A stretch of 64,000 nucleotides of DNA from Chloroflexota bacterium (lineage in GTDB: Bacteria > Chloroflexota > Dehalococcoidia > Tepidiformales > Tepidiformaceae). Each line of letters begins with the position of its first letter. The first letter of the stretch is position 1. Under the pieces are notes generated by a model. The model ran no database searches. It was not told the origin of the DNA and saw only the letters and a list, made by a program, of their open reading frames with translations. The DNA lies in contig JAPPBY010000004.1 in the NCBI GenBank assembly GCA_026702615.1, forward strand, positions 1-64,000, read 5' to 3'. This document shows positions 34,820 to 36,467 of the stretch, one piece after another. Made by a program: the position numbers and the translations under genes.

Positions 34820-35473
34820 GTGATCACCCACCTCTCCGGAACCCTCACCCACACGGACGTCGGCGAGCTCAGCGTCGAGATCGATGTCTCCGGCGTCCGC
34901 TACGAGGTGCTCGTCCCCGCCTTCCTCTGGCCCGAAATCCAGGAGACGACCGATTCCGCCGGTGAAGACGACCCCGATCCCCCGATCGCCCTGCATGTCC
35001 TCTACCACGCCACCGCCAATGTGCCTGTTCCCCTCCTCGTCGGCTTCCTCCGCCGCCCCGAGCGCGACTTCTTCCGCAAGTTCACCACGGTCGAGGGACT
35101 GGGCCCGACGAAGGCTGTCAAGGCCATGACCGTCTCCGTCAGCACCATCGCCCGCGCCATCGAACAGGAAGACCAGGCGGTCCTCACGCGCCTCCCCGGC
35201 ATCGGCCCCCGTGTCGCCGGGAAGATCATCGCGACCCTGCGGGGCAAGGTCGTCGCCGAGGCCGCCCTCCAGGACAGTGGGCTCGACAGCCCCGTCGACC
35301 TCGACAGCCTCCGCCGCGACCGCGTCTCCCTCGACGCCGTCGAGGCGATCGCCGCGCTCGGCTACGCCCGCACGGAGGCCCGCCGCTGGGTCGATGAAGC
35401 CCTCACCGACGACCCCGACATCGCCACGGTCGAGGAGCTCACCCTGGCCGTCCTCCGCGCTCGCGGCGCCTGA
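34820..35473 (+). CDS. ruvA: Holliday junction branch migration protein RuvA
   Basis: 217 residues from a GTG. N-terminal OB fold (LSVEIDVSGVRYEVLVP), a helix-hairpin-helix pair (FTTVEGLGPTKAVKAM and LPGIGPRVAGKIIATL), and a C-terminal RuvB-binding domain (DAVEAIAALGYARTEARRWV). An acidic insertion (about 40-55, DSAGEDDPDPP) in the OB domain is longer than usual. It is unlinked to ruvC (27159), and ruvB is absent from the window. Confidence 0.94.
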   Translation: MITHLSGTLTHTDVGELSVEIDVSGVRYEVLVPAFLWPEIQETTDSAGEDDPDPPIALHVLYHATANVPVPLLVGFLRRPERDFFRKFTTVEGLGPTKAVKAMTVSVSTIARAIEQEDQAVLTRLPGIGPRVAGKIIATLRGKVVAEAALQDSGLDSPVDLDSLRRDRVSLDAVEAIAALGYARTEARRWVDEALTDDPDIATVEELTLAVLRARGA

Positions 35474-35519: not shown

Positions 35520-36467
35520 GTGACCGAGCCCCCTGCCGACCCAGAGAGCACCCCTCCCCCGGAGCAGCGGCCGGAACCAGCGTTTGAGGCTCCCCCGCAG
35601 GCCCCTCGCAGGACCGTTCGTCCTCCGCTGTGGCCCTATTTCCTGACTCCGATCGCCGTGCTCATCGGCGCCGCCGCTATCGTCGTCACGATCATCCTGC
35701 TCGACGACGACCCGCCTCCCGCCGAGCCCATCGGCCCCGCCCTGGAGTCTCTGTCCGAGGCGGTCGAGTCCCTCGCCGACGCTTCCGAGGACATGCGGGC
35801 TGCCGCCGAGGCCGCCCAACCCGCCGCCGCCCGCGATCCGGTCACCCTCCGCGGGACACTGGAGGGCTACGCCGCCGACCTCGACCTCGACGCCACGGCC
35901 TTCGGAGCGTGTCTCGGGGACTCGGCGACCCTCGACACGGTCGGCGATCAGCTCCAGCGCGGCCTCGACCTTGGTGTGAACGGCACGCCCGCCTTCTTCG
36001 TGAACAACAAGTACATCTCCGGGGCGCAGCCATCCGGGGTGTTCGCCGAGGTCATCGCCGCCGAGCTTGCGGGCAGCCCCACCACCATCGAGGAGTACTC
36101 GGAACCCATTCAGGTGCTTGCCAACCGCGAGCCCCCCGCCTTCGCCATCCTCGACCGGGCCCCGGACTTCTCGAATGCGCCCATCAAAGGCAGCCCCGAC
36201 GCTACTGTCGTGATCGTCGAGTTCAGCGACTTCCAGTGCCCGTTCTGCCAGCGCTGGTACCTGAACACCCTTCCCGAAATCGAGCGGCAGATCGGCGACG
36301 ATGTGGCGCTCGTCTTCCTCCACTTCCCCATCACGCAGCTCCACCCGAATGCCCCCACCGCCCACGCCGCCGCCGAGTGCGCCGGGGAGCAGGGCAAGTT
36401 CTGGGAGATGCACGACCTCCTCTTCGAAACGCAGGACGAGTGGTCGCGGCTCCCGAACCCGAACTAG
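35520..36467 (+). CDS. Membrane-anchored DsbA-like thiol-disulfide protein with circularly permuted domain order
   Basis: 315 residues. A Pro-rich cytosolic start, one membrane helix (about 38-62) and an extracytoplasmic part. Residues 112-184 read like the second half of a DsbA/Thioredoxin_4 domain: YAADLDLDATAFGACL, then LGVNGTPAFFVNNKYISGAQP with the cis-Pro loop TP at 156-157. Residues 218-306 then read like the first half: IKGSPDATVVIVEFSDFQCPFCQRWY (CPFC at 240-243), PNAPTAHAAAECAGEQGKFWEMHDLLFE. The protein stops at 315, exactly where the second half would normally begin. All fold elements are thus present once but in swapped order. Likely oxidises or isomerises exported thiols. Two truncated tandem domains are the alternative. 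Confidence 0.8.
   Translation: MTEPPADPESTPPPEQRPEPAFEAPPQAPRRTVRPPLWPYFLTPIAVLIGAAAIVVTIILLDDDPPPAEPIGPALESLSEAVESLADASEDMRAAAEAAQPAAARDPVTLRGTLEGYAADLDLDATAFGACLGDSATLDTVGDQLQRGLDLGVNGTPAFFVNNKYISGAQPSGVFAEVIAAELAGSPTTIEEYSEPIQVLANREPPAFAILDRAPDFSNAPIKGSPDATVVIVEFSDFQCPFCQRWYLNTLPEIERQIGDDVALVFLHFPITQLHPNAPTAHAAAECAGEQGKFWEMHDLLFETQDEWSRLPNPN

Follow-up and report, generated by a model that had tools for sequence, protein, structure and literature searches.

Natural circular permutations are uncommon, and DsbA is a textbook system for engineered ones. The closest described system is PDB entry 1un2, the engineered circularly permuted E. coli DsbA Q100T99. Ordinary relatives include C. diphtheriae DsbA/TsdA (4pwp) and B. 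subtilis BdbD (3eu3). A natural DsbA-like domain with a rearranged topology is also found in TRXL1 of the eukaryotic folding sensor UGGT, in which, according to two papers, the whole four-helix subdomain comes before the thioredoxin part (PMC5610325, PMC8024514). Our search of the open-licence literature, a scope outside which most subscription papers lie, found no report of a natural permuted DsbA, and no open-licence paper matched UGGT together with permutation.

Here we describe a gene within the window, the whole stretch of 64,000 nucleotides, from an uncultured Chloroflexota bacterium, that was analysed. Its product resembles 4pwp and 3eu3 in having a CxxC motif, a Thr-Pro loop and a helical insert, but differs from both in the order of its halves and in the point of membrane attachment. 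An engineered DsbA permutant is already known; for a natural and conserved one, the open-licence papers searched gave no precedent.

Gene layout and order of the halves

The features of the gene and its upstream neighbour are as follows (window coordinates, all on the + strand).

34820..35473, +, gene directly upstream, which we take from its sequence to be ruvA-like; a homologue lies upstream at 24/33 loci
35520..36467, +, gene for the circularly permuted DsbA-like protein, 315 aa, GTG start, TAG stop, with full-length orthologues
35631..35702, +, predicted membrane anchor, residues 38-61, from the sequence and a helix at 38-61 in the AlphaFold2 model
35736..35813, +, spacer helix, residues 73-98, pLDDT about 70, varying among relatives
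35841..36080, +, half B, residues 108-187, the former C-terminal DsbA half, now first (DSBA profile, half-HMM scan)
35910..35912, +, Cys131, invariant (31/31), aligned to C146 of Wolbachia alpha-DsbA1 (second disulfide)
35985..35990, +, Thr156-Pro157, the cis-Pro loop, invariant (31/31, and 24/24 in alignment A3)
36081..36158, +, linker, residues 188-213, connecting the former C-terminus to the former N-terminus
36159..36455, +, half A, residues 214-312, the former N-terminal half, now last (Thioredoxin_4 profile match)
36237..36248, +, CPFC active-site motif, residues 240-243, invariant (31/31)
36378..36380, +, Cys287, invariant, aligned to C97 of Wolbachia alpha-DsbA1

The protein begins with a proline-rich stretch that carries basic residues and precedes the helix at 38-61. 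Under the positive-inside rule, these basic residues and the DDD after the helix suggest an N-in, C-out topology. Half B contains GTPAFFVNNKYISGAQP, and half A contains FSDFQCPFC and is followed by the stop. Pro157 is presumably in the cis state, as is expected from its family membership.

The first-pass annotation had proposed that the cis-Pro half precedes the CPFC half in one open reading frame, and three kinds of search concur. In a Pfam scan, positions 118-190 (of 191) of DSBA PF01323 fell on residues 107-179 and positions 6-94 (of 165) of Thioredoxin_4 PF13462 on residues 221-309, so the start of the family profile is placed after its end and the order is second half, then first half. 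With phmmer against the PDB, residues 223-313 matched 72-162 of the 4pwp chain and residues 142-189 matched 197-244. Six-frame scans with separate half profiles found one half B and one half A at each orthologous locus, and no third half at these loci or in their flanks. The residue ranges first assigned to the two halves were correct within a few residues.

Circular permutation had been offered as the explanation of this order. When residues 188-315 and then 105-187 were joined in silico, the exchanged sequence gave a single Pfam stretch (Thioredoxin_4 6-160/165 and DSBA 2-190/191) and one alignment to 4pwp over chain positions 72-242 with 83 bits. The profile halves are therefore reversed in the natural protein and continuous once exchanged, one family match is restored by the exchange, and the predicted model aligns end to end with 1un2 (see below). 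The protein thus has the CxxC, the Thr-Pro loop and the helical domain of the DsbA-like/Thioredoxin_4 family and departs from its canonical half order; like a circular permutant, it has complete swapped halves that become continuous after exchange, a stable architecture and, as judged from the predicted model, the same fold.

The position of the new termini can be seen by comparison with a normal-order Chloroflexota relative (L125), in which the loop between the halves reads FWEMHDLLFARQSEWASLSSPLDRFVGYAGDLGLD. A permuted example (L023) ends at FWEMHDLLFARQAEWSNLR and restarts at LLDTFLGYARSLGLD. Since both permuted termini lie within the inter-half loop, the core helices are all retained.

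Conservation and selection in Chloroflexota

Sixty genomes, including the window's own, were searched for a long match in the swapped order. It was present in 30 of the 36 members of the window's family and in none of the 24 genomes from other families. We also carried out two profile searches in which 5 or 6 candidates were scored per genome. Across the class, 35 of 393 genomes had a full-length orthologue (31 of the 38 in the window's family, plus 4 in a second one), and the other 358 had no match at E<=1e-40. Across the phylum, a full-length match was found in only 4 of 400 genomes, each a member of the window's family. To judge from contig numbers and coordinates, L035 (Chloroflexi bacterium SB0661_bin_44) and L036 (APA_bin_13) come from two of the second-family genomes. 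Orthologues of the same order, which the first reading had suggested seeking in related genomes, thus exist in two families. Two full tandem domains in relatives, which would have told against a permutation, were also looked for; the relatives show the swapped order instead. The single-contig genomes G005, G020, G034 and G830 are among those with the swapped-order gene.

We aligned 31 of these proteins, dropping L034, which is cut by a contig end, and L037 (Dehalococcoidia bacterium CSSed162cmA_515), which duplicates L030 in gene coordinates and ends. Nine residues are invariant in 31/31: C131, T156, P157, C240, P241, F242, C243, C287 and W308. The protein had been described as ending where the second half normally starts, and its orthologues do stop at the same helix end, with the stop just past the helix FWEMHDLLFxxQxEWxxL (with small variations) at 32/33 loci and the remaining locus cut by a contig end. 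Chance is excluded because the 31 aligned proteins share both the order and this C-terminal helix end. In nine close pairs, dN/dS was 0.05-0.23 across the gene, with values of 0-0.14 in half A and 0.03-0.22 in half B; the swapped-order gene is under strong purifying selection.

Two further observations concern the history of the gene. Between the window gene and L006 and L007, synonymous divergence was more than 2-fold higher in half B (0.54-0.64) than in half A (0.21-0.28), a pattern that would fit separate histories of the two halves, for example through recombination. In addition, the loci of the window's genus (L001 and L006-L012) group (SH-aLRT 98) with L035 and L036, which seem to belong to the second family, and apart from the remaining genera of the window's family. 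Gene transfer is a possible cause of this grouping. The ruvA neighbour is missing at L010, L011, L035 and L036.

Swapped order in another phylum

Outside the Chloroflexota set, two swapped-order open reading frames were found among 114 loci, L063 and L068. The first belongs to Candidatus Collierbacteria bacterium RIFOXYD2_FULL_45_13, a genome that we take to be of the phylum Patescibacteria. In that phylum, 285/379 genomes had a DsbA-like match. Its best 30 loci comprised 23 with a swapped-order open reading frame and 7 with the normal order only, and 12 further loci, chosen for their long match ranges, comprised 4 swapped and 8 normal. The swapped order was therefore present at 27/42 loci examined, which are a selected sample, and in at least 27 of the 379 genomes.

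Alignment A3 holds 24 proteins, namely L063, L068 and 22 others, and its CPxC, TP and two further cysteines are invariant (24/24). An independent model, that of L063 (pLDDT 87.1), again had 1un2 as its sole match at E<=0.001, with Z 13.8 over 167 residues. A second natural cut site is seen in L159, L160 and L198: most permuted proteins are cut ahead of the fourth helix, and these three are cut behind it, a shift of one helix.

Tandem arrays of 2-7 complete DsbA-like domains per open reading frame occur in Myxococcota and others, which shows that the duplication stage of the classical permutation mechanism exists in nature. The window's own lineage yielded no tandem intermediate as direct ancestor. 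In Myxococcota, arrays of two to four domains are common, and a single open reading frame of an uncultured bacterium (L100:2945-7981) encodes seven complete tandem domains.

Number of origins

All swapped-order proteins could descend from one permutation event, with gene transfer between Chloroflexota and Patescibacteria. In a tree of 152 rows, from which units with >35% gaps, identical units and many tandem units were omitted, the 32 permuted rows from Chloroflexota formed one clade (SH-aLRT 100) and the other permuted rows were scattered. One origin was rejected on this full set (p-AU 0.0151) but not on a thinned set of 98/152 rows (p-AU 0.0888), from which 7 long or odd rows had been removed and others thinned. 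Nor was a single clade of the 24 non-Chloroflexota proteins rejected (p-AU 0.106), and the majority of cuts fall within the same loop. Against it stand the 9 label changes needed on both trees, the rejection on all 152 rows, and the later cut in L159, L160 and L198. We consider a single event a serious candidate, at slightly less than even odds.

Since the AU rejection vanishes on the thinned set, we do not claim several origins. Permutation in this membrane-anchored thiol-disulfide oxidoreductase is possibly recurrent. We tentatively suggest, again with a confidence a little short of one half, that permuted DsbA enzymes are widespread in nature and arose several times, in Chloroflexota and on repeated occasions in Patescibacteria, in most cases through a new cut in the helix-helix loop that is also cut in the engineered protein, and that the permutation may have been kept because the anchored enzyme is turned round and tethered via its helical domain.

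Predicted fold

AlphaFold2 was run on 31 permuted sequences and no templates. In the model of the window protein, block means of pLDDT were 88-98 over residues 111-310, and the helices of the helical domain lie at 110-120, 125-132, 135-150, 278-289 and 294-303. The prediction of the monomer, which had been suggested as a check, joined both halves in one fold. The engineered permutant 1un2 was the only PDB chain at E<=0.001, and VIA-align placed model residues 109-309 on its residues 4-189 (Z 13.9, 169 residues, 3.1 A), although AlphaFold2 may be acquainted with 1un2 and DsbA folds through its training. The next-best entry, the ordinary BdbD, gave Z 7.2 over 104 residues and one half only. No viral relative was found by fold at E<=0.001; by sequence, 8 viral stretches matched a pattern and none encoded a relative.

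The same halves might instead close on their counterparts in another chain, forming a domain-swapped dimer through the linker. Several DsbA-like proteins are oligomers. The half profiles, 6-16 residues apart (median 12, n=44) in normal-order single-domain relatives, are separated by 35-41 residues in the permuted Chloroflexota proteins and by 18-38 in the other permuted proteins, which would be long enough for such an exchange. The monomer model, however, is confident across both halves and aligns with 1un2 over 169 residues, and we regard the swapped dimer as unlikely, at perhaps one chance in ten.

Putative redox function and partner genes

By homology, the protein is a putative thiol-disulfide oxidoreductase that acts outside the membrane. 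Its genome also encodes a normal-order paralogue (C18), and a DsbD_TM-like protein was the only partner candidate found; neither DsbB nor VKOR, which are membrane four-helix bundles unrelated to the DsbA fold, was recognised there. Both were likewise unrecognised in all 9 genomes of the window's genus, though DsbA-like proteins are present. Among the 38 genomes of the family, VKOR matched in 8 and DsbB in 17, and one or the other matched in 22/29 family genomes outside the genus. Partner genes (DsbB, VKOR, DsbD_TM) were also searched as an explanation of the permutation, and no explanation was gained.

It could be argued that the permuted domain folds and yet is no redox enzyme, serving as a binding or sensing module, a role suggested for the thioredoxin-like domains of UGGT. 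TRXL1 likewise has a rearranged DsbA-like topology (PMC8024514, PMC5610325). UGGT chains align across portions of the two halves, with Z reaching 6.5 for the window model and 7.4 for the L063 model, and a genus in which DsbB and VKOR go unrecognised would suit such a role. Nevertheless, CPFC and Thr-Pro are invariant in 31/31 proteins, as are CPxC and TP in 24/24 of A3, and we rate a non-redox module as improbable, marginally more so than the swapped dimer.

Proposed explanation

Many other bacteria carry DsbA domains in tandem, and a truncation could leave halves B and A behind, but an error of assembly or annotation, or the decay of such a tandem gene, is rejected as extremely improbable, barring one error common to all assemblies, given an order and ends shared by dozens of separate genomes, single-contig ones included, strong purifying selection, flanks without further halves and class-wide orthologues.

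The reading that we prefer is a natural circularly permuted DsbA-like thiol-disulfide oxidoreductase, to which, with its proposed origin, its closure as one chain and its predicted anchoring and activity, we assign a probability of about 0.9. An ancestral DsbA-like gene would have been duplicated in tandem, after which the first copy would have lost its first half and the second copy its second half. A linker would then join the former termini, and the new termini would fall in the loop that connects helices three and four of the helical domain. The single chain would close as a monomer into an ordinary DsbA fold, in which CPFC of the C-terminal half would meet the Thr-cis-Pro loop of the N-terminal half.

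A disulfide between C131 and C287 may staple both ends beside the new cut by linking the helices next to the new termini. In the alignment to Wolbachia alpha-DsbA1 (3f4r), with numbers counted by hand, C287 falls on C97 and C131 on C146, the pair that is mutated in PDB entry 3f4t according to its title. The N-terminal helix would anchor the protein in the membrane with the domain outside, and the tether would run via the helical domain instead of via the first strand of the thioredoxin core. Thus anchored, the domain may exchange disulfides with exported proteins.

Comparison with known systems

This natural permutation is a conserved feature of two bacterial families, and the other phylum shows more than one cut. 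Evolution seems to have re-cut the fold and left it unbroken. These proteins are an evolutionary counterpart to the engineered permutant. They offer a natural sequence set to probe the effects of permutation on folding, stability and the membrane presentation of a redox enzyme, and they warn that annotation that relies on family match alone overlooks the order of the halves.

The window protein and 1un2 have the same half order, new termini within a few residues of the same loop, and an end-to-end structural match. Unlike the window protein, 1un2 was made in the laboratory and crystallised as a chain that lacks a membrane anchor, and the two share ~15% identity. TRXL1 is a domain of a large glucosyltransferase; the window protein, in contrast, is cut within its helical domain and retains the CxxC.
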